In this document: positions 5,687 through 63,864 of the stretch, piece after piece
Layout of the letters: every line of letters begins with the position of its first letter
Position numbering within the stretch: position 1 is the first letter of the stretch
From: Bolinopsis microptera
Lineage: Eukaryota; Ctenophora; Tentaculata; Lobata; Bolinopsidae
Assembly (NCBI RefSeq): GCF_026151205.1
Contig: NC_087084.1
Location: 1,898,312-1,962,311, forward strand
DNA: 64,000 bases
Direction: 5' to 3'
Made by a program: the position numbers and the translations under genes
The notes under the pieces: model-generated
Database searches by the model: none
What the model was told of the DNA's origin: nothing
Seen by the model: only the letters and a program-made list of their open reading frames with translations

Positions 5687-5942
5687 AGTGAAGGAAAGAG
5701 GGAGGAGAAGATGGCGGTGAGGGAGGAGAAAATGGCGAAGTCAATACTGTAGCCCAGGAAGTAGATGCGTTGCTTAGGATACAAACGGTCACGTCATAGT
5801 CTCTTCTATCGCTTTGACATTGGGACCTCAAATTATTTGTTATATAGTAGTGTTGAAAGTATTAAAAAGTATTTTTCTATATAGAAAAATTTGAAATTTT
5901 TGTTTGATTGCAATGTTTTGTTGATTTAAACATATAACCAGG

Positions 5943-6954: not shown

Positions 6955-6985
<31 letters not shown>

Positions 6986-43686: not shown

Positions 43687-43732
<46 letters not shown>

Positions 43733-49700: not shown

Positions 49701-52700
49701 CTAATATGCATAATATTACTAATACTACTAATATACATAATACTACTAATACTACTAATATACATAATATTACTAATACTACTAATATACATAATATTAC
49801 TAATACTACTAATATACATAATATTACAGCTGTGCTGGGGGTTATCCTATGTGATTTAGGCGGTCTATGATAAGTGATAGGACTGGTTCTTGTTTAAACA
49901 TATTATCGTACAGAGGACAAACGACAAACAAACATAATTTTTCAAATTATAATAATGATGTCACAACGTGACTAACAGTTCAGAGGCTAAAATAGTCTCC
50001 GCATTAAAACCATTATAAACATATAGTCTGCATGGAGTTTGAACAAATCGTTTGATCATATTAACAAAATTAAAGCCTGTGCTCCAAACTTAGTACACCA
50101 TTTTTCTCTGAAATACATTCAGCTTGGATAAAGTACTGTATTACAATACTGACAGTCATTCCATGAGGTTCAATTGAGCTGACGTATGGAGACGTAGCTA
50201 ATTAAACTTCACATAAGATTAAGTTTAGAAGATTATTAATATAAGTTAAGAACCTTATTAATATAAGTTGATAACTTTAATATAAGTTAAGAACCTTATT
50301 AATATAACTTGATAACTTTATTAAGATATATAAAGAACCTTATTAATATAAGTTGATAACTTTATTAATATGATTTAAGAACCTTATTAATATAACTTAA
50401 TAACTTTATTAATATAAGTTAAGAGCGTTATTAAAATAACTTAATAACTTTATTAATATAAGTTAAGAACCTTATTAATTATAATATTTATCACCTCACT
50501 AACCCCCTTCCCTCAACAGACACCTAGCAGTGCAAGCAAATGGGAAGAAACCCCCGGCCGACAGAAGGGCTGGGAAGAAACCCCGGGCAGGCCGAAAGGA
50601 AGTGAAACTCCTGGAGTTACTCCTTCTGCTAGAGCTTGGGAGGCGACACCCAGTTACGCTACAGCCATGACACCCGGACACGCTACTCCCGGAGCTATGA
50701 CACCAGGATCAACAGCTAGGAGACACAGGTTTATTAATTAATTTAGTTAATTAATTAATCAGCTAGGAGACACAGGTTAATTAATTAAATTAATTAATTA
50801 ATTAATTAATCAGCTAGGAGACACAGGTTAATTAATTAAATTAATCAATTAATTAATTAATCAGCTAGGAGACACAGGTTAATTAATTAAATTTATTAAT
50901 TAATTAATTAATCAGCTAGGAGACACAGGTTAATTAATTTAATTAGTTAATTAATTAATCAGCTAGGAGACACAGGTTTAACATTGAGATTAAAAGGATC
51001 GCTGAAAATGTTAACTCAACTAAGTCTTATTGAAATGTGACACTTTACTTTAAATCCTTACATAGATTTGATTTGAAACTGTCAAAATTATAACATTGAC
51101 AGCACATAATTTAGATGAAATATATCGAAAATATAGATCCATATTGCATCAATAGTACAAATAACAGACCTACCACACGTATAATATAGATCCATATTGC
51201 ATCAATAGTACAATTAACACACGTATAGGATAAACCCATCTGGTGTAATACCAATATTGTCATTGGTGGCTCAGTCCACTTAATAAGTCCACTTAATAAT
51301 TATAACTATCATTGGTCGCTCAGTCAGTAATAAAATATATTATTTTTACCGCTTGAAATTAGCCTAACTCATTCCAATTAAACAAAGCTTATCTTACTCT
51401 GTCTTAATATTGGATTGAAAACCACTAACCACTCCAACTAACCTCTTACCACCCCAACTACCCCCCCCCCCCCCCCCCCCCAACTAACCACCCCAACTAA
51501 CCCCTACAGATGGGACGAAACACCCCGAGCAGACATCTCAGAGACCCCCGGTCACGCTAGTGGTTGGTTGGAGACACCCCGCACTGACCGTGGAGGTGAT
51601 GGTGGTATGACCCCTGGAGCGCAGGGACAGACCCCTTCTGGAGCAACCCCCGCTGGGGGCACCAGTAAGAGGAAGAGTCGGTGGGATGAGACTCCTTCTG
51701 CTCAGGTGGGTGATATTGCACGTGTGGGGTATATTGCACGTGTGGGGTATATTGCACGTGGTATTGCACGTGTGGGGTATATTGCACGTGTGGGTATATT
51801 GCATATTTAGGAGTTCGGTTTGCCATATTTTGTTTGATTATTTTAATTGATTATTTTAATTAATCTGTTGACCCACGAGATACACAAAATCAGACTAGTT
51901 TATGTTTCAGACTCCTGCTGGGGGCGCCACCCCTTCAGTAACCACCCCCGTAGGATTGGGGGTGGGGGTTACCCCCGCTGGTATGATGGCTATGGGCATG
52001 GCAACTCCAACACCGGGACATCTTGCTGCTATGACGCCCGAGCAGATGCAGGCTTACAGGTCTGTGTTTATTTTGTAATTTAATTTAATTAATAATACAA
52101 AATAATAATAATGAACTAAGTACTGTGGTATTTAAGGTATTTTTAGCTGTTGAAACGCTCCAAACTAAACTAAATAAATTTTTAAATAAATAAGTTTCTA
52201 CCTTAAACAGATGGGAACGTGAAATAGATGAAAGAAACAGACCTCTAACAGACGACGAACTGGACGGACTGTTCCCTTCAGAGGGTTACAAGATCCAGGA
52301 GCCCCCAGCTAACTACGCCCCTGTCCGCACCCCTATCCGCAGGCTCACTCAGACTCCAACTCCTATGGTGCAGACTGGGTTCAGGATCCAGGTAAAGTGT
52401 GGTTGTAACCTAGCAATTAGTAGAGGTTGCATAGTAACCAGTAGAGTTTAGAGTTGGTTAGGATCCAGGTAAAGTGTGGTTGTAACCTAGCAATTAGTAG
52501 TGGTTGCATAGTAACCAGTAGAGTTTAGAGTTGGTTATCAGAAGAGGTTGCATAGTAACCAGTAGAGGTTGCATAGTAACCAGTAGAGTTTAGAGTTGGT
52601 TATCAGTAGATGTTGCATAGTAACCAGTAGAGGTTGCATAGTAAAGTAGTAACCAGTAGAGGTTGCATAGTAACCAGTAGAGTTTAGAGTTGGTTATCAG

Positions 52701-55700
52701 TAGAGGTTGCATAGTAACCAGTAGAGGTTGCATAGCAACCAGTAGAGGTTGCATAGTAACCAGTAGAGGTTGCATAGTAACCGGTAGAGGTTGCGTAGTA
52801 ACCAGTAGAGTTTAGAGTTGGTTATCAGTAGATGTTGCATAGTAACCAGTAGAGGTTGCATAGTAAAGTAGTAACCAGTAGAGGTTGCATAGTAACCAGT
52901 AGAGTTTAGAGTTGGTTATCAGTAGAGGTTGCATAGTAACCAGTAGAGGTTGCATAGCAACCAGTAGAGGTTGCATAGTAACCAGTAGAGGTTGCATAGC
53001 AACCAGTAGAGGTTGCATAGTAACCAGTAGAGGTTGCATAGTAACCAGTAGAGGTTGCATAGTAACCAGTAGAGGTTGCATAGTAACCAGTAGAGGTTGC
53101 ATAGTAACCAGTAGAGGTTGCATAGTAACCGGTAGAGGTTGCATAGTAACCAGTAGAGGTTGCATAGTAACCAGTAGAGGTTGCATAGTAACCAGTAGAG
53201 TTTAGAGTTGGTTAAGATTTTTAGAGTTTGCCGTGAGAGCTGGATTAAGTTAAAATCTTTGAAGAAAGGCTTCTAATAGATAACGTTACATTCATCATTT
53301 CCGAATCTACTTATTTTCATGTCAGTCCACTAACCTTCACCACCTTTAGATTGAAGACAAGTCAGTGAAGTCGTTCAACGACCAGCCTCAGGGAGGGAAC
53401 CTGCCTTTTCTCAAACAGGAGGATATCCAGTACTTTGACAAGCTCCTCACAGAGGTGGACGAGTCTACTCTCACACCAGAGGAACTCAAGGTACAGTTAA
53501 ACTAGGATTTACAGGGTTTATAGGTATTGTAGGGAATGTGGGGATTTATAGGGAATGTAGGGAATGTCCTCACAGAGGTGGACGAGTCTACCCTCACACC
53601 AGAGGAACTCAAGGTACAGTTAAACTAGGATTTACAGGGTTTACTCTCACACCAGAGGAACTCAAGGTACAGTTAAACTAGGATTTACAGGGTTTACTCT
53701 CACACCAGAGGAACTCAAGGTACAGTTAAACTAGGATTTACAGGGTTTACTCTCACACCAGAGGAACTCAAGGTACAGTTAAACTAGGATTTACAGGGTT
53801 TACTCTCACACCAGAGGAACTCAAGGTACAGTTAAACTAGGATTTACAGGGTTTACTCTCACACCAGAGGAACTCAAGGTACAGTTAAACTAGGATTTAC
53901 AGGGTTTACTCTCACACCAGAGGAACTCAAGGTACAGTTAAACTAGGATTTACAGGGTTTACTCTCACACCAGAGGAACTCAAGGTACAGTTAAACTAGG
54001 ATTTACAGGGTTTACTCTCACACCAGAGGAACTCAAGGTACAGTTAAACTAGGATTTACAGGGTTTACTCTCACACCAGAGGAACTCAAGGTACAGTTAA
54101 ACTAGGATTTACAGGGTTTACTCTCACACCAGAGGAACTCAAGGTACAGTTAAACTAGGATTTACAGGGTTTACTCTCACACCAGAGGAACTCAAGGTAC
54201 AGTTAAACTAGGATTTACAGGGTTTACTCTCACACCAGAGGAACTCAAGGTACAGTTAAACTAGGATTTACAGGGTTTACTCTCACACCAGAGGAACTCA
54301 AGGTACAGTTAAACTAGGATTTACAGGGTTTACTCTCACACCAGAGGAACTCAAGGTACAGTTAAACTAGGATTTACAGGGTTTACTCTCACACCAGAGG
54401 AACTCAAGGTACAGTTAAACTAGGATTTACAGGGTTTACTCTCACACCAGAGGAACTCAAGGTACAGTTAAACTAGGATTTACAGGGTTTACTCTCACAC
54501 CAGAGGAACTCAAGGTACAGTTAAACTAGGATTTACAGGGTTTACTCTCACACCAGAGGAACTCAAGGTACAGTTAAACTAGGATTTACAGGGTTTACTC
54601 TCACACCAGAGGAACTCAAGGTACAGTTAAACTAGGATTTACAGGGTTTACTCTCACACCAGAGGAACTCAAGGTACAGTTAAACTAGGATTTACAGGGT
54701 TTACTCTCACACCAGAGGAACTCAAGGTACAGTTAAACTAGGATTTACAGGGTTTACTCTCACACCAGAGGAACTCAAGGTACAGTTAAACTAGGATTTA
54801 CAGGGTTTACTCTCACACCAGAGGAACTCAAGGTACAGTTAAACTAGGATTTACAGGGTTTACTCTCACACCAGAGGAACTCAAGGTACAGTTAAACTAG
54901 GATTTACAGGGTTTACTCTCACACCAGAGGAACTCAAGGTACAGTTAAACTAGGATTTACAGGGTTTACTCTCACACCAGAGGAACTCAAGGTACAGTTA
55001 AACTAGGATTTACAGGGTTTACTCTCACACCAGAGGAACTCAAGGTACAGTTAAACTAGGATTTACAGGGTTTACTCTCACACCAGAGGAACTCAAGGTA
55101 CAGTTAAACTAGGATTTACAGGGTTTACTCTCACACCAGAGGAACTCAAGGTACAGTTAAACTAGGATTTACAGGGTTTACTCTCACACCAGAGGAACTC
55201 AAGGTACAGTTAAACTAGGATTTACAGGGTTTACTCTCACACCAGAGGAACTCAAGGTACAGTTAAACTAGGATTTACAGGGTTTACTCTCACACCAGAG
55301 GAACTCAAGGTACAGTTAAACTAGGATTTACAGGGTTTACTCTCACACCAGAGGAACTCAAGGTACAGTTAAACTAGGATTTACAGGGTTTACTCTCACA
55401 CCAGAGGAACTCAAGGTACAGTTAAACTAGGATTTACAGGGTTTACTCTCACACCAGAGGAACTCAAGGTACAGTTAAACTAGGATTTACAGGGTTTACT
55501 CTCACACCAGAGGAACTCAAGGTACAGTTAAACTAGGATTTACAGGGTTTACTCTCACACCAGAGGAACTCAAGGTACAGTTAAACTAGGATTTACAGGG
55601 TTTACTCTCACACCAGAGGAACTCAAGGTACAGTTAAACTAGGATTTACAGGGTTTACTCTCACACCAGAGGAACTCAAGGTACAGTTAAACTAGGATTT

Positions 55701-58700
55701 ACAGGGTTTACTCTCACACCAGAGGAACTCAAGGTACAGTTAAACTAGGATTTACAGGGTTTACTCTCACACCAGAGGAACTCAAGGTACAGTTAAACTA
55801 GGATTTACAGGGTTTACTCTCACACCAGAGGAACTCAAGGTACAGTTAAACTAGGATTTACAGGGTTTACTCTCACACCAGAGGAACTCAAGGTACAGTT
55901 AAACTAGGATTTACAGGGTTTACTCTCACACCAGAGGAACTCAAGGTACAGTTAAACTAGGATTTACAGGGTTTACTCTCACACCAGAGGAACTCAAGGT
56001 ACAGTTAAACTAGGATTTACAGGGTTTACTCTCACACCAGAGGAACTCAAGGTACAGTTAAACTAGGATTTACAGGGTTTACTCTCACACCAGAGGAACT
56101 CAAGGTACAGTTAAACTAGGATTTACAGGGTTTACTCTCACACCAGAGGAACTCAAGGTACAGTTAAACTAGGATTTACAGGGTTTACTCTCACACCAGA
56201 GGAACTCAAGGTACAGTTAAACTAGGATTTACAGGGTTTACTCTCACACCAGAGGAACTCAAGGTACAGTTAAACTAGGATTTACAGGGTTTACTCTCAC
56301 ACCAGAGGAACTCAAGGTACAGTTAAACTAGGATTTACAGGGTTTACTCTCACACCAGAGGAACTCAAGGTACAGTTAAACTAGGATTTACAGGGTTTAC
56401 TCTCACACCAGAGGAACTCAAGGTACAGTTAAACTAGGATTTACAGGGTTTACTCTCACACCAGAGGAACTCAAGGTACAGTTAAACTAGGATTTACAGG
56501 GTTTACTCTCACACCAGAGGAACTCAAGGTACAGTTAAACTAGGATTTACAGGGTTTACTCTCACACCAGAGGAACTCAAGGTACAGTTAAACTAGGATT
56601 TACAGGGTTTACTCTCACACCAGAGGAACTCAAGGTACAGTTAAACTAGGATTTACAGGGTTTACTCTCACACCAGAGGAACTCAAGGTACAGTTAAACT
56701 AGGATTTACAGGGTTTACTCTCACACCAGAGGAACTCAAGGTACAGTTAAACTAGGATTTACAGGGTTTACTCTCACACCAGAGGAACTCAAGGTACAGT
56801 TAAACTAGGATTTACAGGGTTTACTCTCACACCAGAGGAACTCAAGGTACAGTTAAACTAGGATTTACAGGGTTTACTCTCACACCAGAGGAACTCAAGG
56901 TACAGTTAAACTAGGATTTACAGGGTTTACTCTCACACCAGAGGAACTCAAGGTACAGTTAAACTAGGATTTACAGGGTTTACTCTCACACCAGAGGAAC
57001 TCAAGGTACAGTTAAACTAGGATTTACAGGGTTTACTCTCACACCAGAGGAACTCAAGGTACAGTTAAACTAGGATTTACAGGGTTTACTCTCACACCAG
57101 AGGAACTCAAGGTACAGTTAAACTAGGATTTACAGGGTTTACTCTCACACCAGAGGAACTCAAGGTACAGTTAAACTAGGATTTACAGGGTTTACTCTCA
57201 CACCAGAGGAACTCAAGGTACAGTTAAACTAGGATTTACAGGGTTTACTCTCACACCAGAGGAACTCAAGGTACAGTTAAACTAGGATTTACAGGGTTTA
57301 CTCTCACACCAGAGGAACTCAAGGTACAGTTAAACTAGGATTTACAGGGTTTACTCTCACACCAGAGGAACTCAAGGTACAGTTAAACTAGGATTTACAG
57401 GGTTTACTCTCACACCAGAGGAACTCAAGGTACAGTTAAACTAGGATTTACAGGGTTTACTCTCACACCAGAGGAACTCAAGGTACAGTTAAACTAGGAT
57501 TTACAGGGTTTACTCTCACACCAGAGGAACTCAAGGTACAGTTAAACTAGGATTTACAGGGTTTACTCTCACACCAGAGGAACTCAAGGTACAGTTAAAC
57601 TAGGATTTACAGGGTTTACTCTCACACCAGAGGAACTCAAGGTACAGTTAAACTAGGATTTACAGGGTTTACTCTCACACCAGAGGAACTCAAGGTACAG
57701 TTAAACTAGGATTTACAGGGTTTACTCTCACACCAGAGGAACTCAAGGTACAGTTAAACTAGGATTTACAGGGTTTACTCTCACACCAGAGGAACTCAAG
57801 GTACAGTTAAACTAGGATTTACAGGGTTTACTCTCACACCAGAGGAACTCAAGGTACAGTTAAACTAGGATTTACAGGGTTTACTCTCACACCAGAGGAA
57901 CTCAAGGTACAGTTAAACTAGGATTTACAGGGTTTACTCTCACACCAGAGGAACTCAAGGTACAGTTAAACTAGGATTTACAGGGTTTACTCTCACACCA
58001 GAGGAACTCAAGGTACAGTTAAACTAGGATTTACAGGGTTTACTCTCACACCAGAGGAACTCAAGGTACAGTTAAACTAGGATTTACAGGGTTTACTCTC
58101 ACACCAGAGGAACTCAAGGTACAATTAAACTAGGATTTACAGGGTTTATAGGTATTGTAGGGAATGTAGGGAATGTAGGAAATGTAGGGAATGTAGATTA
58201 AATTAGGACCAGATTAAGACATAAAACCATCTCACGCTTTAACAACCTCCCTCCAGGAAAGGAAGATTATGAAACTGCTCCTTAAAATCAAGAACGGAAC
58301 CCCGCCCATGCGTAAAGCAGCCATGAGACAAATAACGGACAAAGCAAGGGAGTTCGGAGCAGCAGCTCTGTTTAACCAGATTCTACCTCTTCTGATGTCT
58401 CCTACTCTTGAGGATCAGGTTAGTAACCATTAGAGGTTAGTAACCATTAGAGGTCGCTTAGTAACCAGTATAGGTTGCTTAGTTACCAATATAGGTTGCT
58501 TAGTAACCAGCACTAGTAGAGGTTACTTAGTTACAACCAACATCAAGCCAGTCCACCGGATGTTTTAACTGCTTAGTGACAATAGTTTTGTTTGGTTTGA
58601 TATTGTGCTTATAAGTTACCAATCTAAAGATACAGTTATCCCCTGACCCAGCGCAAATGACAATCACCACAATATTGAACCCTTTCAATAGCTTTCATTG

Positions 58701-61700
58701 TTCCTGATATCGAACAAAATTACAACTACACTTTACACCATTTAGTAACACCAACTAAAACTTCCTCCCCAACAGGAGCGACATTTGCTGGTAAAAGTAA
58801 TCGACAGGATCCTTTACAAACTGGACGATCTGGTCCGACCCTTCGTTCATAAGATCCTGGTTGTTATTGAGCCTCTACTGATTGATGAGGATTACTATGC
58901 GAGAGTTGAGGGCAGGGAGATTATCTCCAATCTTGCTAAAGCTGCTGGTGGGTTTTTAGAGAGTTTTGTGTTGTTGGTTAAATCACATTTCAAATGATCA
59001 ACGATAGGATCTTATTGATCATTGTACATTTCCCTTTTTAATCGAACAAGAAAATATGGCTGATTGGCTGAGTTTCATTTCCAATTTAACAGCTTTTTCT
59101 CATACCCACTTGAGGACCTTCAATCGTCAATTAACTAATTAACTAATTAACCAATTCACTTAATCACCAACCTTCCCCCTTGACCAGGTCTCGCTACCAT
59201 GATCTCAACAATGAGGCCCGATATCGACAACATGGACGAGTACGTGCGTAACACGACAGCACGTGCGTTTGCTGTGGTCGCGAGCGCGCTCGGTATTCCC
59301 TCTCTCCTTCCCTTCCTTAAGGCTGTGTGTAGGAGTAAGAAGTCATGGCAAGCGCGGCATACTGGTATCAAGATCGTTCAGCAGGTAGGCTACAGTTAAA
59401 CTAATTCTAGGGGTGTTAACTGTAAATTACAAGTTTTTTCTTGGATATTTTGTAAAAATTAGGTCCAAACCAGAGGGACAGAGAGTGTAGTTGTGTATGT
59501 ACTTCTATGTGTACAATTTTTACCACACAGGGTCCTTCATTCATAATACTAAAATTCAGGTTGCTATCTTGATGGGTTGTGCCACATTATTATTATTCAG
59601 GTTGCTATCTTGTTGGGTTGTGCCACATTACAATTATTCAGGTTGCTATCTTGTTGGGTTGTGCCACATTACAATTATTCAGGTTGCTATCCTAATGGGT
59701 TGTGCCACATTACAATTCAGGTTGCTATCTTGATGGGTTGTGCCACATTACAATTCAGGTTGCTATCTTGATGGGTTGTGCCACATTACAATTCAGGTTG
59801 CTATCTTGATGGGTTGTGCCACATTACAATTCAGGTTGCTATCTTGATGGGTTGTGCCACATTACAATTCAGGTTGCTATCTTGATGGGTTGTGCCATCC
59901 TGCCCCATCTCCGGAACCTGGTGGAGATTATAGAACACGGTCTGGTAGACGAGCAGCAGAAAGTGAGAACCATTACAGCTCTAGCTATAGCTGCCCTGGC
60001 TGAGGCGGCTACTCCCTACGGTATTGAGAGCTTTGATTCTGTGCTTAAACCTCTCTGGAAGGGTATTAGGTGAGCAACCAGTATAGGTTACTTAGTAACC
60101 AGTATAGGTACTTAGTAACCAGTATAGGTTACTTAGTAACCAGTATAGGTTACTTAGTAACCAGTATAGGTTACTTAGTAACCAGTATAGGTTACTTAGT
60201 AACCAGTATAGGTTACCTAGTAACCAGTATAGGTTACCTAGTAACCAGTATAGGTTACTTAGTAACCAGTATAGGTTACTTAGTAACCAGTATAGGTACT
60301 TAGTAACCAGTATAGGTTACTTAGTAACCAGTATAGGTTACTTAGTAACCAGTATAGGTTACTTAGTAACCAGTATAGGTTACTTAGTCACCAGTATAGG
60401 TTACCTAGTAACCAGTATAGGTTACTTAGTAACCATTAGAGGTTACCTAGTAACCAGTATAGGTTATTTAGTAACCATTCGAGGTTACTTAGTAACCTGC
60501 TTTACTTTTATCTTCTGAAAAGTGCAATTAAACTACCGATAAAGAACAATTAATAGTCCCCACGTTAATATTGGAAACATTCTCACCTAATTTTAACCTA
60601 AAATTAACCTTCATGATTTTAATTTCAATCATACATAATATTTATTAATTAGCAACAATTATGTACAATCTTTCGCGTCCTCGAACACCCACCTGACACA
60701 CTAATCTCTGTCAGGATGCACCGAGGTAAGGGTCTAGCTGCCTTCCTCTAGTAATGTTACCATGGTAACACTACCATATAAGGTAATGTTACCATGGTAA
60801 CCATGCTATCTAACACCCACCTGACACACTAATCTCTGTCAGGATGCACCGAGGTAAGGGTCTAGCTGCCTTCCTCAAGTAATGTTACCATGGTAACACT
60901 ACCATATAAGGTAATGTTACCATGGTAACCATGCTATCTAACACCCACCTGACACACTAATCTCTGTCAGGATGCACCGAGGTAAGGGTCTAGCTGCCTT
61001 CCTCAAGTAATGTTACCATGGTAACACTACCATATAAGGTAATGTTACCATGGTAACCATGCTATCTAACACCCACCTGACACACTAATCTCTGTCAGGA
61101 TGCACCGAGGTAAGGGTCTAGCTGCCTTCCTCAAGTAATGTTACCATGGTAACACTACCATATAAGGTAATGTTACCATGGTAACCATGCTATCTAACAC
61201 CCACCTGACACACTAATCTCTGTCAGGATGCACCGAGGTAAGGGTCTAGCTGCCTTCCTCAAGTAATGTTACCATGGTAACACTACCATATAAGGTAATG
61301 TTACCATGGTAACCATGCTATCTAACACCCACCTGACACACTAATCTCTGTCAGGATGCACCGAGGTAAGGGTCTAGCTGCCTTCCTCAAGTAATGTTAC
61401 CATGGTAACACTACCATATAAGGTAATGTTACCATGGTAACCATGCTATCTAACACCCACCTGACACACTAATCTCTGTCAGGATGCACCGAGGTAAGGG
61501 TCTAGCTGCCTTCCTCAAGTAATGTTACCATGGTAACACTACCATATAAGGTAATGTTACCATGGTAACCATGCTATCTAACACCCACCTGACACACTAA
61601 TCTCTGTCAGGATGCACCGAGGTAAGGGTCTAGCTGCCTTCCTCAAGTAATGTTACCATGGTAACACTACCATATAAGGTAATGTTACCATGGTAACCAT

Positions 61701-63864
61701 GCTATCTAACACCTACCTGACACACTAATCTCTGTCAGGATGCACCGAGGTAAGGGTCTAGCTGCCTTCCTCAAGTAATGTTACCATGGTAACACTACCA
61801 TATAAGGTAATGTTACCATGGTAACCATGCTATCTAACACCCACCTGACACACTAATCTCTGTCAGGATGCACCGAGGTAAGGGTTTAGCTGCCTTCCTC
61901 TAGTAATGTTACCATGGTAACACTACCATATAAGGTAATGTTACCATGGTAACCATGCTATCTAACACCCACCTGACACACTAATCTCTGTCAGGATGCA
62001 CCGAGGTAAGGGTCTAGCTGCCTTCCTCAAGTAATGTTACCATGGTAACACTACCATATAAGGTAATGTTACCATGGTAACCATGCTATCTAACACCCAC
62101 CTGACACACTAATCTCTGTCAGGATGCACCGAGGTAAGGGTTTAGCTGCCTTCCTCAAGTAATGTTACCATGGTAACACTACCATATAAGGTAATGTTAC
62201 CATGGTAACACTACCATATAACGTAATGTTACCATGGTAACCATGCTATCTAACACCCACCTGACACACTAATCTCTGTCAGGATGCACCGAGGTAAGGG
62301 TTTAGCTGCCTTCCTCAAGTAATGTTACCATGGTAACACTACCATATAAGGTAATGTTACCATGGTAACACTACCATATAACGTAATGTTACCATGGTAA
62401 CCATGCTATCTAACACCCACCTGACACACTAATCTCTGTCAGGATGCACCGAGGTAAGGGTCTAGCTGCCTTCCTCAAGTAATGTTACCATGGTAACACT
62501 ACCATATAAGGTAATGTTACCATGGTAACCATGCTATCTAACACCCACCTGACACACTAATCTCTGTCAGGATGCACCGAGGTAAGGGTTTAGCTGCCTT
62601 CCTCAAGTAATGTTACCATGGTAACACTACCATATAAGGTAATGTTACCATGGTAACACTACCATATAAGGTAATGTTACCATGGTAACCATGCTATCTA
62701 ACACCCACCTGACACACTAATCTCTGTCAGGATGCACCGAGGTAAGGGTCTAGCTGCCTTCCTCTAGTAATGTTACCATGGTAACACTACCATATAAGGT
62801 AATGTTACCATGGTAACCATGCTATCTAACACCCACCTGACACACTAATCTCTGTCAGGATGCACCGAGGTAAGGGTCTAGCTGCCTTCCTCAAGTAATG
62901 TTACCATGGTAACACTACCATATAACGTAATGTTACCATGGTAACACTACCATATAACGTAATGTTACCATGGTAACACTACCATATAAGGTAATGTTAC
63001 CATGGTAACCATGCTATCTAACACCCACCTGACACACTAATCTGTCAGGATGCACCGAGGTAAGGGTCTAGCTGCCTTCCTCAAGTAATGTTACCATGGT
63101 AACACTACCATATAAGGTAATGTTACCATGGTAACCATGCTATCGAACACCTACCTGACACACTAATCTCTGTCAGGATGCACCGAGGTAAGGGTCTAGC
63201 TGCCTTCCTCAAGGCTATTGGTTATCTTATCCCGCTTATGGACGCAGAATACGCCAGATACTACACTCAGGAGGTGATGTTGATTCTGATTCGAGAGTTC
63301 CAGTCCCCTGACGAGGAGATGAAGAAGATCGTGTTGAAGGTACGTGTAGTCAACAGCTACATAGCAACAGCTACATAGCGACAGCTACATAGCAACAGCT
63401 ACATAGCAACAGCTACATAGCAACAGCTACATAGCAACAGCTACATAGCAACAGCTACATAGCAACAGCTACATAGCAACAGCTACATAGCAACAGCTAC
63501 ATAGCAACAGCTACATAGCAACAGCTACATAGCAACAGCTACATAGCAACAGCTACATAGCAACAGCTACATAGCAACATCTACATAGCAACAGCTACAT
63601 AGCAATTAGCAACATAGCAATTAGCAACAGCTACATAGCAGCAGCTAACGTAGCTCTCATCATTTGAAAATGTTATTTGACACATTTCTGTAAGGGGATT
63701 TCAAAAAGGTGGATGGCTAATATTTTGATGAATTGATATTTTGATGAATTATATTAAAGGAAAGGCGACTATTAAGATATTGTTCAGGTAGTAAAGCAGT
63801 GTTGTGGTACTGATGGTGTAGAGAGTCAGTACATCAGGGAGGAAATACTTCCAGAGTTCTTCAG
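16932..63864 (+). CDS. SF3B1: Splicing factor 3B subunit 1 (SF3b155), 18 exons, continues past the right edge
   Basis: Coding exons: 16932-16956, 18329-18402, 30683-30738, 31373-31517, 31717-31914, 32054-32145, 32471-32579, 50520-50728, 51510-51705, 51911-52059, 52211-52391, 53350-53490, 58257-58418, 58776-58947, 59188-59384, 59873-60069, 63177-63339, 63788-63864. They total 2543 nt (847 codons plus 2 nt) and every junction agrees in phase. The product follows human SF3B1 closely: MSAPKTHEE start, [12 protein letters not shown], repeated W(D/E)xTP ULM/phospho motifs, the SF3B6-binding [12 protein letters not shown] segment, then HEAT repeats. SF3B1 holds the branch-site adenosine in the U2 snRNP. 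Residues equal to the cancer hotspots are wild type: E654, R657, H694, K698, K732 (human E622, R625, H662, K666, K700). The remaining ~460 residues lie beyond the window. Confidence 0.97.
17404..17889 (-). CDS. Possible single-pass membrane protein nested in SF3B1 intron 1
   Basis: This open frame of 161 codons lies in a comparatively GC-rich block. The likely start is the internal Met34 (17790), giving [20 protein letters not shown], a short lumenal end plus one membrane helix, then a charged ~100-residue tail ([19 protein letters not shown]...). The base composition and absence of internal repeats argue that it is more than chance, but I recognise no family. It could be a nested gene or a piece of a mobile element. 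No splice evidence was found. Confidence 0.35.
   Translation of the reverse strand: MHVPSTINHDNVHAYGQCLLLHLSYANIINSISMEPSSILILIAIVLLGVAIMGGGTMVFCCHGFERGLPFLSVRELYDELGDLDRRTTDRYRDFAVLINHVAVQLQRGAANIPRQHLVKETSTVMEMEEGKTAVGCQSTPTRQIMVGPAQGDFIISIPDE
18329..18402 (+). CDS. SF3B1: SF3B1 exon 2
   Basis: Acceptor gttgcag, donor gtacga, ends in phase 0. It encodes [13 protein letters not shown]..., matching the human DIEAQIREIQGKK helix after KTHE. The following intron is 12.3 kb and contains the PRODH gene. Confidence 0.9.
18526..18700. repeat. Dispersed repeat, copy A
   Basis: The block with ccttgttttacttgccgtac, then tacagcaaggtcat, is a diverged copy of the block at 46811-46975 (ccttgtttaacactgccgta). 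Both share ggaacc, gccgtacagcaa, ggcacata and tatccttgta-like landmarks in the same order. It is probably a mobile-element fragment of unknown class. Confidence 0.55.
19940..20445. repeat. 19-bp minisatellite in SF3B1 intron 2
   Basis: The unit is tattgaggggtactgactc, about 25 copies. Variants (ctcaattg / ctctattg; gactc / ggctc / gattc) recur in blocks, so part of the array was duplicated as a longer unit. Confidence 0.95.
21677..21778. promoter_or_regulatory. Cluster of five CACGTG E-boxes
   Basis: Five CACGTG hexamers, mostly in the context (T)CACGTG(AC/TC), fall within about 100 bp, followed by TATA-like AT-rich sequence near 21835-21870. bHLH-Zip factors (USF, MITF, MYC type) bind such sites in animals. 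No gene start is adjacent; PRODH begins 6 kb downstream. The cluster may also be repeat-derived. Confidence 0.3.
22125..23430. repeat. 16/18-bp minisatellite with 384-bp higher-order repeat
   Basis: Units of acactgtgtttcacagtt (18) and acactgtgtttctgtt (16) alternate over 1.3 kb. A block starting near 22562 recurs 384 bp later near 22946 with the same order of variants. Long open frames here reflect lack of stop codons in the unit, not coding. Confidence 0.95.
23897..25690. repeat. 51-bp tandem array, about 35 copies
   Basis: The unit, containing tgtactgctgccagctgcta and gttgtataatgcttattgg, repeats with exact 51-bp spacing, leaving a 604-codon open frame with a 17-residue period. Three variable positions (cagctCc/cagctGc, tataAtgc/tataCtgc, ttatTgg/ttatCgg) are distributed unevenly: the CTCC variant only in copies 3-14, the CTGC variant mostly in the last third. 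Confidence 0.97.
26150..26490. repeat. About 43-bp tandem repeat
   Basis: The unit is ttaagttattgtaaaactac, then agtattgtaaaactacaggtccc, with truncated copies. It is itself built from an internal 15-bp duplication (tattgtaaaactaca). Confidence 0.9.
26491..27768. other. Sequence upstream of PRODH, no gene seen
   Basis: AT-rich with a short tcta-atagtat repeat near 27120-27155. TATA-like strings (tatgatataatattcc at 27702-27717) lie about 50 bp before the PRODH ATG and could belong to its promoter. Confidence 0.35.
27769..29577 (+). CDS. PRODH: Proline dehydrogenase, mitochondrial, intronless
   Basis: The 602-residue product equals the animal PRODH length. It oxidises proline to pyrroline-5-carboxylate with FAD in mitochondria. 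Visible family motifs in order: [13 protein letters not shown] (109-121), an EF-hand-like insert (about 281-328), DAEQTYFQP (385-393), [12 protein letters not shown] (414-425), [12 protein letters not shown] (445-456), ASHNE (500-504), QLLGMCDQ (530-537), YKYVPYGP (550-557) and [11 protein letters not shown] (562-572). The N-terminus (Arg, Leu, Ser-rich, no acid before residue 41) fits a mitochondrial presequence. The gene has no introns and lies in intron 2 of SF3B1 on the same strand, which suggests a retrocopy, although the frame is fully intact. MM at the start leaves either Met possible. Confidence 0.93.
   Translation: MMLRVNNVLRSTSLGALPRYGRLQALPQLQHSTPARHKRSDAQTDSHVVPPVLLNFQDAKAAYESKNTFELFRSRIVLRLCGIDSIVNNNEKLLKFSKIMLPKKMFDSVMRMTFYGQFVGGADVNDLRPKLSKMQEYGVKPILDYSVEADLKEDETDEIPEIAVTEVQFKQDSISSKRNTHQAVARAYPYKGEDSCEENLNIFLECLETASQVCDKNAFSAIKVTGLGKPNALLEGSHFLHRIQELYIKHSQTFEGTLPSYINIKYLPKDVLGPKELLAELRMTLDNFRAMLTSLGADLSESEITDLFNSMSPDEMGHIKYHRFRESCMPGPPEKPLYTVLTHLNLPDGKIKMSADHLEALNRVEERLIVLCDRAVELDAKILIDAEQTYFQPMIDYFANKMMSRYNKENVYVFNTYQCYLKSTPSQLIYDADKANVLGYKLGAKLVRGAYMEQERQRALDLNYEDPIYPDKAHTNSCYHNMVEIVLKQIERQKCQVMIASHNEFTIQYVVERMRQSGICPANGGIFFGQLLGMCDQVTYLLGAGGYCSYKYVPYGPIEAVLPYLSRRAYENKGMLKGSQKEIELLKGELKRRRWSVFSTAN
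29578..30682. other. Remainder of SF3B1 intron 2, foldback element only
   Basis: AT-rich sequence with one inverted-repeat element (30004-30156). No gene seen. Confidence 0.4.
30004..30156. mobile_element. Foldback/MITE-like inverted repeat
   Basis: The arm beginning ttcaccctaatgtttttgtg (30004-30050) is matched in reverse complement by the arm ending cacaaaaaatcagggtgaa (30111-30156), imperfect over about 46 bp. A second short inverted pair (gtgac / gtcac) lies inside. Confidence 0.6.
30683..30738 (+). CDS. SF3B1: SF3B1 exon 3
   Basis: Acceptor ttctcag, donor gtaagt. It encodes [19 protein letters not shown] (last codon completed by exon 4), equivalent to the human YYDQEIYGG segment. Confidence 0.88.
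31081..31118. repeat. Short perfect inverted repeat
   Basis: atattttgatgata and tatcatcaaaatat form 14-bp perfect arms around a 10-bp loop in SF3B1 intron 3. Confidence 0.8.
31373..31517 (+). CDS. SF3B1: SF3B1 exon 4
   Basis: Acceptor tatcccag, donor gtaagt. It encodes an acidic, poorly conserved stretch ([18 protein letters not shown]...), replacing the human DDDDDY / TSLLGQKKPGYH region. Phase supports the assignment. Confidence 0.8.
31717..31914 (+). CDS. SF3B1: SF3B1 exon 5
   Basis: Acceptor gttcccag, donor gtcagt. It encodes [19 protein letters not shown], then [18 protein letters not shown] and [16 protein letters not shown], which match the human [16 protein letters not shown] and RTYMDVMREQHLTKEE. 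Confidence 0.95.
32054..32145 (+). CDS. SF3B1: SF3B1 exon 6
   Basis: Acceptor ttctcag, donor gtacgt. It encodes [18 protein letters not shown] and ends in PAKKKRR, corresponding to the human basic PSKRKRR nuclear-localisation segment just before the first W-D motif. Confidence 0.9.
32341..32468. repeat. 18-bp array of CACGTGACGTCACT abutting the exon 7 acceptor
   Basis: About seven copies of aaaacacgtgacgtcact run to within a few bases of the authentic acceptor tattccag. Each unit joins an E-box (CACGTG) and a CRE core (TGACGTCA). Confidence 0.95.
32471..32579 (+). CDS. SF3B1: SF3B1 exon 7
   Basis: Acceptor tattccag, donor gtaggc. It begins RWDVSTP and ends STWDPE, two U2AF-ligand-motif-like tryptophans. 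It is preceded directly by an 18-bp CACGTGACGTCACT array and followed by the 17.9-kb intron 7 with four nested genes. Confidence 0.9.
32580..33074. other. Start of SF3B1 intron 7 up to the SRCR-like gene, no gene seen
   Basis: On the minus strand an open frame (33065 down to 32944, hydrophobic) follows an AG only 29 bases beyond the possible donor of the SRCR-like gene's last exon. A 29-base intron is implausible, so this is treated as 3' flank. Confidence 0.4.
33075..35088 (-). CDS. Secreted protein with two SRCR-like domains, five exons, nested in SF3B1 intron 7
   Basis: Minus-strand exons 35088-35040, 34496-34347, 34120-33959, 33572-33480 and 33316-33075 all join in phase 1 to 231 residues plus stop. 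Exon 1 encodes a signal peptide ([16 protein letters not shown]). Exons 2-3 form domain 1 ([15 protein letters not shown] ... [32 protein letters not shown]); exons 4-5 form domain 2 ([20 protein letters not shown] ... [29 protein letters not shown]). This is the short SRCR-like type common in cnidarian proteins. The final cysteine of each domain is missing (FFTS, FLAS). The two-exon-per-domain plan with constant phase implies domain duplication. The stop falls in exon 5 at 33075; a further exon cannot be excluded. Donors are gttagt, gtgagt, gtgagc and gtatgt. Confidence 0.72.
34505..34895. repeat. Minisatellite of gtgtaggat/gtgtagaat/atttaggaat
   Basis: Units of 9-10 bp combine into blocks of about 28 bp (gaatgtgtaggatgtgtag then aatatttag). 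It lies in intron 1 of the nested SRCR-like gene, adjoining its exon 2 acceptor. Confidence 0.9.
35953..36915 (-). mobile_element. Decayed PIF/Harbinger transposon
   Basis: TIRs GGGGTCCTTTCCGAAA (35953-35968) and its reverse complement at 36900-36915 are flanked by the 3-bp duplication CAG (35950-35952 and 36916-36918). Inside, the minus strand encodes a DDE_Tnp_4-type transposase fragment in two frames: [20 protein letters not shown], then [17 protein letters not shown] and [15 protein letters not shown] one-base frame change separates them and the rest is missing, so it is inactive. Subterminal ACTTAAGT-type motifs recur at both ends. Confidence 0.8.
36258..36540 (-). pseudogene. Harbinger transposase fragment, frameshifted
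   Basis: Read on the minus strand, [11 protein letters not shown] (first catalytic Asp region of the DDE_Tnp_4 family) ends in a frameshift, and the next frame continues [19 protein letters not shown] then [11 protein letters not shown] (second Asp region). The third catalytic region is not found. Confidence 0.75.
37530..38185. repeat. 87-89-bp tandem repeat, eight copies
   Basis: The unit includes cataatatcgagataaaggg, aattcaagcagcctgaataa and aggaaaatgttcattctga. The first copies are 87 bp, later ones 89 bp with an extra 'ca' in cgtacaagg. Confidence 0.95.
38480..39010. repeat. About 120-bp repeat with CACGTG-rich core
   Basis: Four to five copies of gaggtatgtgctgatctcac followed by runs of acgtgcacaac and gagactgatcactg. 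Alternate copies resemble each other, indicating a roughly 240-bp higher-order unit. Confidence 0.9.
39121..39450. repeat. 7-bp (tactgaa)n array
   Basis: Runs of aatactg/aatactc with occasional insertion of gaatgaatactg. Not a telomere repeat. Confidence 0.95.
39651..39689. repeat. Perfect 19-bp inverted repeat, 1-base centre
   Basis: cttttggttttccctatga, then a, then tcatagggaaaaccaaaag: exact reverse complements, able to extrude a near-loopless hairpin. Confidence 0.95.
39748..39948 (+). pseudogene. Possible C-terminal remnant of a LINE polyprotein
   Basis: A 66-codon frame ends [20 protein letters not shown], resembling the common RDRxxWR ending of LINE ORF2 proteins, and is followed after the stop by a (TAG)n microsatellite as in LINE/SINE tails. 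Too short to be sure. Confidence 0.3.
39957..40170. repeat. Duplicated ~65-bp tRNA-like segment around a CACGTG/GACGTC array
   Basis: tagtagtagtgtgtagga begins two copies (39959 and 40101), each containing gtggtagagcgggtgattcc, which resembles a tRNA D-arm / A-box, and ending at acaaagttacaacgtg. Between them lies a 20-bp array (catgacgtcacaccacgtgt, three to four copies). It may be a tRNA-derived SINE head; no complete tRNA fold is present. Confidence 0.45.
41054..42310 (-). CDS. Carbohydrate sulfotransferase 1 of 2, intronless
   Basis: The 418-residue type II Golgi protein has a short cytosolic end, a membrane anchor (about 52-69, [19 protein letters not shown]), then a Pro-rich stem. PAPS-binding motifs are intact: the 5'-phosphosulfate loop [15 protein letters not shown] (96-110) and the 3'-phosphate motif [15 protein letters not shown] (236-250, Arg241 and Ser249). 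The fold is that of GlcNAc/Gal/keratan sulfate sulfotransferases (CHST1-7 class), which transfer sulfate from PAPS to glycans. The acceptor sugar cannot be told. The first ~28 residues may be non-coding; M22 or M28 are alternative starts. It is paralogous to 47636-48772. Confidence 0.88.
   Translation of the reverse strand: MQCCKTRVLRTRILLTFRRLGMKGILNMSPWFQQKLHYVNKQPIIVPSLTKWLVRCFLVLFCILFVRSLYTSPPKPLDPAFNLKLDPDMKLILLLTPYRGGSTFLGRIFDTNPAMQYLFEPFYDVAVRELYSRGQILGARADHTEADLRMLYLQQILHNCTVYKSWFPEKYEWCGSPEENLIRYNSTECEKKFYRPNKTPKEICKLRKIIVLKVIRQQHLSDILKIAQIRTANIKIIHLLRHPIPLMMSRGTGGKYFGWDRRTQVENGHDLWGRRVKSSWETYNYCAYNLESVRFAASNPWLGRVFMTVTHREMSLEPLKTTERIYNFVEETLTDEIKEYIFKMANADDQSNENRHDGLDTFKNSTETVNAWKDLKNQRIRFWDLYSVESQCKLLFGLLKEGFTVDSIPYDKLRYLHL
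42473..43437. mobile_element. Non-autonomous TIR element, G-rich
   Basis: Perfect 13-bp terminal inverted repeats GGGGTCGTTCACA (42473-42485) and its complement (43425-43437); no clear target duplication. The interior carries G runs and three copies of gtcaggccatgattacgt followed by attgctgtcagg (43255-43395). No ORF. Confidence 0.6.
43690..43732. repeat. Poly-C tract of about 43
   Basis: Near-uninterrupted C run. The open frame through it on the minus strand is poly-Gly and not a gene. Confidence 0.95.
43968..45071 (-). CDS. Class-A (rhodopsin-like) GPCR, intronless, without DRY motif
   Basis: The 367-residue protein has seven hydrophobic helices. TM1 carries GTVGNLISF (Asn41), TM2 carries TGNDILIS (Asp67), Cys97 and Cys173 can form the TM3-ECL2 disulfide, and TM7 ends in [11 protein letters not shown] (NPxxY at 300-304). 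At the end of TM3 the usual DRY is replaced by SRT (121-123, [12 protein letters not shown]). An N-glycosylation site lies at Asn5, and the tail is Ser/Thr-rich with an acidic cluster. Ligand unknown; cnidarian and other invertebrate genomes carry many such orphan receptors. It lies between the two sulfotransferases on the same strand. Confidence 0.85.
   Translation of the reverse strand: MTMVNSTSSYAVVTKPAYNEEADMTYGSICCLFFFIGTVGNLISFIYFKSKKRDISNVIYMVITGNDILISIAILPVGISSLSNRQPGPWFASEYGCVAWVFLWNISVSLSIFLVMCLSISRTIALLRPFKQQNIKYLIISVITYSVLRLAQNIRMYMYEFLGMSYDSDYLRCNISATSDLIIGTEFFTLLIIGNLTYIAPAFVVAMSCIISAVLLRRSGVQVQQEELQRSRNRATVTILMFALLYGVCNIPLAMHYIFKTYIRITYDNEWYDSLYQFDTQYYYNNAVQTLLLAANSAANPILYFWRMPRLKEGTLSSIRRISTLIREVTRSTSNVRQVEEECENNVAQNISVTPNPLAAATEETEL
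45236..45362. repeat. 9-bp (agagtatag)n array
   Basis: Direct repeats of gagtataga with minor interruptions. Confidence 0.95.
45830..45870. repeat. Perfect 20-bp inverted repeat, 1-base centre
   Basis: attttctcagcacctgtgac, then t, then gtcacaggtgctgagaaaat: exact reverse complements. The arm contains CAGGTG E-boxes. Confidence 0.97.
46811..46975. repeat. Dispersed repeat, copy B
   Basis: Diverged counterpart of 18526-18700; see that entry for shared landmarks. Confidence 0.55.
47275..47415. mobile_element. Solo end of the PIF/Harbinger element
   Basis: Closely matches the left 140 bp of the element at 35953-36915, beginning GGGGTCCTTTCCGAAA and including ACTTAAGT motifs, then stops. The right end is absent. 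Confidence 0.85.
47636..48772 (-). CDS. Carbohydrate sulfotransferase 2 of 2, intronless
   Basis: The 378-residue paralogue of the 41054-42310 gene has a membrane anchor near 9-24 ([17 protein letters not shown]), PAPS loop [15 protein letters not shown] and 3'-phosphate motif [15 protein letters not shown]. The central ~170 residues (ELYSRGQ to NLESVR) are identical to the paralogue, while the N-terminal stem and the C-terminal [19 protein letters not shown] region differ. Upstream in-frame codons ([13 protein letters not shown]) align with the longer N-terminus of the paralogue but lack a Met, supporting the start used here. The 3' flank is also shared. Confidence 0.9.
   Translation of the reverse strand: MNVPSLTKWVIRCFLALFCICFYKLSNSSSSEPPKPIDPAFNLTMDPDVKLILLLTSFRGGSTFLGRIFDINPAVQYLFEPFYDVALRELYSRGQILGARADHTEADLRMLYLQQILHNCTVYKSWFPEKYEWCGSPEENLIRYNSTECEKKFYRPNKTPKEICKLRKIIVLKVIRQQHLSDILKIAQIRTANIKIIHLLRHPIPLMMSRGTGGKYFGWDRRTQVENGHDLWGRRVKSSWETYNYCAYNLESVRLAASDPWLRRAFMTVTHREMSLEPLKTTERIYNFVEETLTDEIKEYIFKMANADDQSNENRHDGLDTFKNSTETVNAWKELKNHWVKFWDLYTVESQCKLLFGVLKEGFTVDSIPYEKLRYLHL
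49055..49085. other. GC-rich hairpin cccggcggccttcggccggg
   Basis: A short self-complementary block in otherwise AT-rich DNA, upstream (in minus sense) of the second sulfotransferase. Function unknown; possibly the end of an unrecognised repeat. Confidence 0.4.
49525..49830. repeat. Array of aatactactaatatacataatatt units
   Basis: Units of about 24-27 bp (tactactaatatacataat then attactaa) repeat with deletions. Confidence 0.9.
50220..50485. repeat. About 38-40-bp repeat ending close to the exon 8 acceptor
   Basis: Units of gaaccttattaatataagtt and gataactttattaatata repeat up to about 30 bp before the exon 8 acceptor. Confidence 0.85.
50520..50728 (+). CDS. SF3B1: SF3B1 exon 8, donor copied downstream
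   Basis: Acceptor ctcaacag, donor gtttat. It encodes [34 protein letters not shown] and [16 protein letters not shown], the Thr-Pro-rich region that is phosphorylated during splicing in other animals. The last 17 nt (CAGCTAGGAGACACAG region) are repeated five times in intron 8. The authentic donor is weak (gtttat); the choice rests on reading phase into exon 9. Confidence 0.9.
50712..50978 (+). repeat. Exon 8 donor-junction array (five decoys)
   Basis: The exon end CAGCTAGGAGACACAG followed by gtt is authentic at 50728 and recurs with pseudo-exon ends at 50775, 50826, 50877, 50928 and 50975, separated by (ttaa)n spacers of about 30 bp. Unit 47-51 bp. Confidence 0.95.
51510..51705 (+). CDS. 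SF3B1: SF3B1 exon 9
   Basis: Acceptor ccctacag, donor gtgggt. It encodes [33 protein letters not shown] and [11 protein letters not shown], nearly identical to the human [15 protein letters not shown] and [11 protein letters not shown]. Confidence 0.95.
51706..51805 (+). repeat. Repeat beginning at the exon 9 donor
   Basis: Units of gtggggtatattgcacgt (18 bp), about five copies, begin within 10 bases of the donor gtgggt. They contain gtgggg-like weak donor strings but no exon sequence. Confidence 0.85.
51911..52059 (+). CDS. SF3B1: SF3B1 exon 10
   Basis: Acceptor tgtttcag, donor gtctgt. It encodes a Gly/Val-rich TP segment, then [20 protein letters not shown], matching human [20 protein letters not shown]. 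Confidence 0.95.
52211..52391 (+). CDS. SF3B1: SF3B1 exon 11, SF3B6-binding segment
   Basis: Acceptor cttaaacag, donor gtaaag. It encodes [20 protein letters not shown], then FPSEGYKI and [17 protein letters not shown]; this region binds p14/SF3B6 in human SF3B1. Its last 8 nt and the donor are copied once at 52461-52468. Confidence 0.95.
52384..53215 (+). repeat. Exon 11 junction duplication plus 21-bp intronic minisatellite
   Basis: The exon end ggatccag with gtaaagtgtggttgtaacc (authentic at 52391) recurs at 52468. The rest of the array is aggttgcatagtaaccagtag (21 bp) in more than 30 copies, interspersed with agtttagagttggttatc, and includes a duplicated block of about 230 bp (52600-52830 and 52810-53040 regions). 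Confidence 0.95.
53350..53490 (+). CDS. SF3B1: SF3B1 exon 12, donor copied 86 times downstream
   Basis: Acceptor cctttag, donor gtacag. It encodes [33 protein letters not shown] and [11 protein letters not shown], matching human [23 protein letters not shown]. The authentic donor is inferred to be the first AAG|gtacag because only it follows the full exon. Confidence 0.95.
53491..58160 (+). repeat. Exon 12 donor-junction array: 86 decoy donors, 53-bp unit
   Basis: After the authentic donor (53491) a longer copy of the exon end (53567-53613) is followed by a donor at 53614, and then the same junction recurs every 53 bp to 58119: exactly 85 further steps with no length change. Each unit contains ctctcacaccagaggaact, caag, then gtacagttaaactaggattt and acagggttta. 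Copies are essentially identical; only the last has gtacaatt. Each unit also supplies tttacag, a potential acceptor, 29 nt before the donor. The sequences that follow the first and last donors (acagggtttataggtattgt) match, so the array expanded inside one original intron start. Confidence 0.98.
58257..58418 (+). CDS. SF3B1: SF3B1 exon 13, start of HEAT domain
   Basis: Acceptor ccctccag, donor gttagt; 54 codons, phase 0 at both ends. It encodes [20 protein letters not shown] and [16 protein letters not shown], almost identical to human. Confidence 0.97.
58419..58535 (+). repeat. Exon 13 donor-side repeat
   Basis: Begins at the donor: gttagtaaccattagag occurs twice in tandem, then ttgcttagtaaccagtatag-like units follow. 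The second gttagt (58436) is a donor-like copy. It is related to the intron 11 and 16 minisatellites by the GTAACCAnTA core. Confidence 0.85.
58776..58947 (+). CDS. SF3B1: SF3B1 exon 14
   Basis: Acceptor ccaacag, donor gtgggt. It encodes [20 protein letters not shown] ... [12 protein letters not shown], nearly identical to human. Confidence 0.97.
59188..59384 (+). CDS. SF3B1: SF3B1 exon 15 with E654/R657/H694/K698
   Basis: Acceptor tgaccag, donor gtaggc. It encodes [20 protein letters not shown] ... [14 protein letters not shown]. The residues equal to human E622, R625, H662 and K666 are unchanged. The exon is notably GC-rich compared with its neighbours. Confidence 0.97.
59547..59872 (+). 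repeat. Exon 16 acceptor-junction array (eight decoys)
   Basis: attcag followed by the first 24 nt of the exon (GTTGCTATCTTGATGGGTTG then TGCC) occurs with AG at 59559, 59600, 59641, 59682, 59720, 59758, 59796 and 59834 before the authentic 59872. The unit is 41 bp in the first half and 38 bp in the second. Early copies carry substitutions in the exon part (ttgttggg, ctaatggg). Confidence 0.97.
59873..60069 (+). CDS. SF3B1: SF3B1 exon 16 with K732 (human K700)
   Basis: The authentic acceptor is the last of nine near-identical AG sites because only there does VAILMGCA continue into [15 protein letters not shown]. It contains [15 protein letters not shown] with the K700-equivalent lysine. Donor gtgagc. 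Confidence 0.95.
60070..60500 (+). repeat. 20-bp palindromic minisatellite starting at the exon 16 donor
   Basis: Units of agtaaccagtataggttact then t, about 21 copies. The junction of adjacent units reads GGTTACT-T-AGTAACC, a perfect inverted repeat with one central base, so the array can form a series of hairpins. Confidence 0.95.
60690..63176 (+). repeat. Exon 17 acceptor-junction array (18 decoys), 128-bp unit
   Basis: Acceptor ctctgtcag plus the first 37 nt of the exon (GATGCACCGAGGTAAGGGTC to CTCAAG) recur with AG starting at 60713, 60841 and then every 128 bp to 62121, with later steps of 160, 160, 128, 160, 128 and 190 to 63047, before the authentic one at 63175. The remainder of the unit is acccacctgacacactaat and the palindrome GTTACCATGGTAAC, two to four times; extra palindrome copies explain the longer steps. 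Each unit also carries the internal donor CCGAG|gtaagg. Confidence 0.98.
63177..63339 (+). CDS. SF3B1: SF3B1 exon 17, acceptor copied 18 times upstream
   Basis: The last of 19 tgtcag acceptors is authentic, since only it continues through [19 protein letters not shown]. It encodes MHRGKG where human has QHRGKG. The exon itself contains a strong-looking internal donor, CCGAG|gtaagg, 11 nt after the acceptor. Donor gtacgt. Confidence 0.95.
63345..63640 (+). repeat. 14-bp (caacagctacatag)n starting at the exon 17 donor
   Basis: About 19 copies begin within 12 bases of the donor gtacgt and end in gcaattagcaacatag variants. No exon sequence is included. Confidence 0.95.
63788..63864 (+). CDS. SF3B1: SF3B1 exon 18, last exon in window
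   Basis: Acceptor ttgttcag, donor gttagt. It encodes [20 protein letters not shown] then LPEFFR, equivalent to human [20 protein letters not shown]. The rest of the HEAT domain lies to the right of the window. Confidence 0.95.

Follow-up and report, generated by a model that had tools for sequence, protein, structure and literature searches.

Tandem duplications of intron/exon borders, termed mirages, have been described in the amphioxus Adh3, troponin C and globin genes, the globin cases being BflGb6 and BflGb9, and PGBD5 carries similar, imperfect boundary repeats (PMC3087553, PMC3902484). According to the accessible portions of these papers, the Adh3 and globin data point to regular splicing, and the Adh and TnC mirages occur without aberrant mRNAs (PMC3087553, PMC3902484). 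Tandem duplication of AG|GT is also the step by which introns are created in the model of Rogers (cited in PMC3087553), and two further papers deal with human gene structure altered by internal tandem repeats (PMC2812944) and with intronic minisatellites and splicing in C. elegans (PMC4039745). In the accessible parts of the mainly open-access literature on ctenophore introns, tandem repeats and splice sites, we found nothing bearing on junction copies.

The product of SF3B1 is a splicing factor that chooses branch sites as part of the U2 snRNP. Decoy exons in intron 4 of human SF3B1 are reportedly responsible for retention of that intron, a result that others ascribe to Parra 2018. In the available parts of later papers, these decoy exons are said to promote retention (PMC8706089, PMC6117862) and to be highly conserved cryptic exons (PMC6117862), and hot-spot mutants of SF3B1 are found to use a cryptic acceptor in the gene's own intron 12, 24 bases upstream of the normal exon 13 acceptor (PMC7139785).

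Junction copies in the SF3B1 gene of Bolinopsis microptera

The window analysed here is the whole 64,000-nucleotide stretch C13:1898312-1962311 of the 264.65-Mb assembly, to which we added 40 kb beyond its end (500 bases overlap). The spliced translation of 15 window exons, joined across AG/GT borders, matches at E=0 the PDB chain 5ife_C (Splicing factor 3B subunit 1), and its best public relative among the matches listed (the best 120 of 8,000 scored), P0001, shows 84% identity across the entire query, which bears out the identification of the gene as SF3B1 in the initial annotation. The model built from the window and the added 40 kb has 26 exons and 25 introns; it covers exons 3 to 28 in the earlier numbering, and from exon 3 its joined frame runs uninterrupted for 1,303 residues up to the stop codon at window coordinate 74110 (C13:1972421). 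Between these two points there are 46 array clusters, and arrays of any period make up 42% of the intron bases.

A search of the genome with P0001 returned 27 matches, of which 24 lie at the SF3B1 locus and three, on C6 and C3, are exon 8 fragments. The latter are dispersed copies of much of exon 8 together with its donor (C6:6168700-6169800, C3:12622600-12623700 and C6:19931000-19932000), 82-86% identical, and sit within repeated sequence that is 92-98% alike across 0.5-1.1 kb. A multi-copy sequence has picked up exon 8. Other genes also lie in the window. The 17.9-kb intron 7 (32580-50519) bears three single-frame genes on the opposite strand, namely, a sulfotransferase gene (Pfam; 41054-42310), a close look-alike of it judged by translation alone (47636-48772), and a rhodopsin-type receptor gene (Pfam; 43968-45071), and a proline dehydrogenase gene at 27769-29577 forms one 602-codon frame, apparently without introns.

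We searched each of the 25 SF3B1 introns for its own donor or acceptor 16-mer (8 exonic plus 8 intronic bases) with at most 2 mismatches, for which a chance match is expected at about 3e-7 per position by hand arithmetic with equal base frequencies, and ran a second scan with the 20 terminal exonic bases and at most 3 mismatches. The 16-mer scan identified 5, 1, 86, 8 and 18 junction copies in introns 8, 11, 12, 15 and 16, respectively, exactly the numbers given in the initial annotation. Its total of about 118 decoy sites holds inside the window and falls short for the whole gene, which has 161, as introns 19, 20 and 22 past the window edge add 43 (1, 1 and 41 copies, corresponding to both ends of exon 20 and the acceptor of exon 23). 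Copies are thus harbored by 8 of the 25 introns, in agreement with the earlier proposal that junctions were captured repeatedly within this one gene. The copied junctions comprise four donors and four acceptors, and the exonic stretch common to junction and copy ranges from 9 to 71 bases. In all eight cases an intact exon-proximal junction is kept, with all copies on its intron side. The GT or AG is preserved in each of the 161 decoys, and each of them leads to a premature stop when it singly replaces the real site, so that splicing must be mostly correct if SF3B1 works.

The arrays in the window, all on the forward strand, differ in size and regularity. Behind exon 8 (50520..50728, authentic donor 50728/50729), the intron 8 array (50713..50978) contains 5 decoy donors in 51- or 47-bp units with 16 exonic bases plus GT. 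The intron 11 array (52378..53200) begins with a 77-bp unit that copies the exon 11 donor once, with 9 exonic bases, and includes the 21-bp TAGTAACC...GGTTGC repeat, after which the array consists of this 21-bp family. By eye, the arrays without junctions in introns 11, 13 and 16 apparently all belong to the same family; hence the statement that the arrays are unrelated in sequence holds only in part. Exon 12 (53350..53490, authentic donor 53490/53491) is followed by the largest array (53567..58148), with 86 decoy donors in 53-bp units that hold 25 exonic bases each. The 53-bp units follow a larger, outer copy that includes 47 exonic bases, so the duplication was nested. All 85 spacings are exactly 53 bp with one sequence throughout, so that the array is either very recent or was smoothed during assembly.

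On the acceptor side, the intron 15 array running into exon 16 (59553..59897) has 8 decoy acceptors in 38- or 41-bp units, with 25 exonic bases and AG|GT, and the intron 16 array running into exon 17 (60684..63213; exon 17 at 63177..63339, authentic acceptor 63176/63177) has 18 in units of 128, 160 or 190 bp, with 37 exonic bases in common with exon 17. The intron 16 units also bear repeated GTTACCATGGTAAC palindromes, which we take to resemble the RFX X-box. Intron 22 contains the 41 acceptor copies of exon 23. Exon 20 has its 48 starting bases copied upstream and its 71 final bases copied downstream, each copy kept apart from the exon by a spacer of 7-bp repeats; since these copies are single and spaced by 7-bp repeats, they are duplications rather than arrays, and the donor copy in intron 20 was detected by the exonic-base scan only. 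The array units carry one copied site each, and AG dinucleotides also occur upstream, for example ATCAG before the exon 8 copies.

Control genes and random placement of arrays

As controls from the same genome, we used family searches that gave 35 matches for chaperonin TCP1, 73 for the myosin head and 72 for dynein DHC_N2. Nine genes with at least 2 matches were taken, i.e., five chaperonin genes (L013-L016 and L020), two myosin genes (L033 and L035) and two dynein genes (L034 and L036); chaperonin loci L017-L019, with one match each, contributed no gap, and the set leaves out most clusters of myosin and dynein as well as one several-match chaperonin cluster (C3, 16.43 Mb). Copies of junctions with exonic bases were found in none of the 46 gaps between consecutive matches in these nine genes, searched with 60 bases on each side of the match ends in eight loci and 20 in L036, where match ends are inexact as exon ends, unmatched exons may hide in some gaps and word lengths differ somewhat from those of the SF3B1 scans. 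The difference between 8 of 25 SF3B1 introns and 0 of 46 control gaps is significant (Fisher P 1e-4), as is that among introns longer than 750 bp (6 of 7 versus 0 of 11 hand-counted gaps, P 4e-4), with the reservation that the sample is small, that a gene's introns are not independent observations and that SF3B1 was preselected as striking. Against these nine sampled genes, SF3B1 is an outlier.

Several control introns contain arrays of their own. One dynein intron in L034 has a 19-bp unit in more than 200 copies that starts about 7 bases inside the intron, and one in L036 has a 26-bp unit in about 86 copies that extends up to the acceptor. We rejected the exon-touching arrays of L013, L034 and L036 as junction copies because they contain no exonic bases; by eye, the L036 array reaches the AG and the others end some 7 to 16 bases into the intron. 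Within one L013 intron, its first 16 bases are repeated once, again without exonic bases. Two neighbouring myosin matches on C3 were likewise rejected as a junction array, as they represent two diverged exon copies. The 26-bp array that ends the L036 intron (5102-7334) has TACTAAT-like branch-point words and CACAG in its near-acceptor units, which places many branch-point/AG pairs ahead of the real acceptor, and a 25-bp intronic array on the reverse strand of L034 (2254-2496) has units with GTAAGT-type donor-like words.

Arrays of period at least 9 cover 13% of 12 further 10-kb stretches, three of which adjoin the window on its upstream side, versus 29% of the window. To see how often arrays would meet a junction by chance, we reduced each of 38 SF3B1 arrays of period at least 9, taken from a hand-copied list that does not contain the exon 20 copies, to one unit and placed it randomly. 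Outside intron 7, at least 8 exonic bases are present in 6 of 25 arrays versus 3.4 expected (P 0.10). Among those with units of at least 30 bp, 6 of 6 contain a junction versus 2.0 expected (P 0.001), a value to be read in the light of the twelve cut-off pairs tried, which gave P from 0.001 to 0.18 and were chosen after seeing the data, and of the intron 12 array, which was entered as a hit by hand since its units rather than its edge hold the exon bases. The excess over random placement is thus modest, and short starting introns account for a good part of the junction-containing arrays, perhaps not for all.

Comparison of decoys with the real sites

The decoys range from exact copies of the real sites to clearly diverged ones. 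Donor bases -3 to +6 are the same as in the real site in the single copy of exon 11 and in 85 of the 86 copies of exon 12, and in none of the five copies of exon 8 or the one of exon 20. Over the 21 acceptor bases -20 to +1, identity with the real site is found in 17 of 18 copies of exon 17 and in 4 of 8 of exon 16; at exon 23, 34 of the 41 copies are of one form, which is unlike the real acceptor upstream of -10. Unit variants occur in mixed order at exon 23 (14 kinds in 40 intervals) and exon 17 (7 kinds in 17 intervals), an arrangement that would fit turnover by exchange.

When the exonic parts of the decoys were compared with the exons, 12 distinct differences were found, 9 synonymous, 2 missense and 1 nonsense. 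The synonymous share exceeds the expected 26% (P 6e-4, rising to P 0.02 when half of the changes are assigned to the exon); of the nine, two affect a single codon in one copy, and one is common to all 41 exon 23 copies. On the plain reading, several of these changes would postdate the copying and have arisen under selection in the real exon; a bolder reading is that exchange may have taken place between the array and the exon end. The border sequence AG|GT is found at all four copied donors and three of the four copied acceptors, compared with 16 of 21 donors and 5 of 21 acceptors among the uncopied SF3B1 sites (acceptor contrast P 0.08), and it is present in 143 of the 161 decoys by hand count.

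Origin of the arrays and comparison with known systems

We favor the explanation, to which we give a probability of about 0.7, that the SF3B1 arrays are mirage-type repeats, i.e., neutral tandem duplications spanning junctions that were expanded as minisatellites and tolerated. A short segment that by chance spanned an exon-intron junction would have been duplicated in tandem, through slippage or template-switching repair, and the duplicates at exons 8, 11, 12, 16, 17 and 23, six of the eight junctions, would then have grown into, or joined, a minisatellite array, much as arrays have grown in many plainly intronic stretches of the gene. Such a duplication can be tolerated because a complete splice site stays against the exon and the extra copies fall inside the intron. 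If the spliceosome pairs sites across the exon (exon definition), it would pick the exon-proximal copy and leave the mRNA unaltered, and we infer that SF3B1 is spliced correctly in the living animal; exon definition is thus a prediction of the neutral account for these introns. This account is supported by the array-rich genome, the intact exon-proximal sites, the open frame and the mixed order of the unit variants, and the amphioxus cases, which combine the same anatomy with regular splicing in the published data accessible, also argue for it. On the other hand, two results fit poorly with a flat neutral picture, namely, the absence of junction copies from the 46 control gaps and the 9 synonymous differences among 12, which plain drift of the decoys would not give; and random placement explains the junction arrays only in part, given 6 of 6 observed versus 2.0 expected for units of at least 30 bp.

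These departures bear on the alternatives. The long-unit arrays outside intron 7, the copying of exon 20 at both ends with a 7-bp repeat spacer each, and the empty control gaps would all suit a mutational hotspot at SF3B1 splice junctions, where transcription-coupled breaks, R-loops or template switching might seed boundary duplications preferentially. We nevertheless consider this unlikely: the cut-offs were post hoc and others gave P up to 0.18, the case rests on one gene in which the mechanism is not visible, and short starting introns together with selection against duplications inside exons would also cluster the survivors near junctions. A sensor function, in which the decoys slow or divert SF3B1 splicing so that U2 snRNP activity sets the share of productive mRNA, by autoregulation through retention or nonsense-mediated decay, is in our opinion quite improbable. 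SF3B1 is indeed the outlier of the 10 genes examined, and every one of the 161 decoys retains its GT or AG and would by itself bring in a premature stop; however, SF3B1 was picked for being striking, and the stops are weak evidence and were rejected as proof of regulation, as intronic sequence tends to yield stops anyway. Precedents exist in the decoy exons that promote retention of human intron 4 (PMC8706089, PMC6117862) and in the cryptic acceptor used by mutant SF3B1 in its own intron 12 (PMC7139785), but the human decoys, as far as the available text describes them, are highly conserved cryptic exons, whereas the present ones are boundary copies, many of them near-identical and therefore probably recent.

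A further thought, which we regard as very doubtful, is that SF3B1 exon termini are rewritten by unequal exchange from the decoy arrays, with a decoy load that ties output to U2 snRNP fidelity. Array copies would then keep replacing the real exon terminus, with only functional ones surviving at the edge, and decoys with AG|GT could in principle serve as splicing ratchet points. We see little chance that the assembler created or inflated the copy numbers, chiefly the 86 of intron 12. Assembly with wtdbg followed by polishing is, in our judgement, able to smooth arrays, and the 85 identical 53-bp intervals count in favor of such an artefact. According to the accessible part of its description, the B. 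microptera assembly was made in this way (PMC10232365). Nevertheless, one collapse or expansion error would not yield eight copied junctions with differing units, ordered unit variants at exons 16, 17 and 23, and the diverged single copies at exon 20. Least credible of all is intron birth as modelled by Rogers, in which tandem duplication of an AG|GT exon segment made the introns and the arrays are leftovers. The AG|GT at four of four copied donors and three of four copied acceptors would suit it, but this word also marks 16 of the 21 donors and 5 of the 21 acceptors that were not copied (acceptors P 0.08), and each intron has one end copied, its opposite end having given no copies.

Returning to neutral mirage-type duplication, the SF3B1 arrays would take mirages to an extreme, probably outside chordates, and in the gene of the branch-site selector. 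The 86 donors of intron 12 and the 41 acceptor copies of intron 22 offer a natural experiment on how the spliceosome chooses among near-equals, since under exon definition only the exon-proximal copy is predicted to be used, and under intron definition the opposite.

Compared with known systems, the arrays share with the SF3B1 intron 4 and OGT decoy exons of humans the presence of extra intronic splice sites able to compete with terminal sites; those decoys, in the parts of the reports available, are conserved cryptic exons sufficient for retention, whereas the sites here are copies of authentic boundaries. With the Rogers model the arrays share AG|GT at the border of a tandem duplication but differ in that the introns have one boundary copied; in none of the eight introns are both ends copies of one exon segment. 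The amphioxus mirages have the same structure, so the initial annotation was wrong in kind in knowing of no described case. As in amphioxus, minisatellite-like units span the exon-intron boundary while the authentic boundary stays, copies occur at either intron end, and AG/GT signals persist in many copies. A boundary-spanning repeat unit is found at all eight SF3B1 junctions, that of exon 11 as a single copy within a larger array; 5' and 3' boundaries are equally affected (four donors and four acceptors), and the splice signals are kept in 161 of 161 copies. Boundary-spanning repeats are already known singly from amphioxus genes, and here many occur within one gene. The amphioxus units, as given in the accessible text, are 10-160 bp long and few in number, two BflGb6 haplotypes having 6 and 3, whereas in SF3B1 eight introns of a single gene are affected, one of them by as many as 86 copies.
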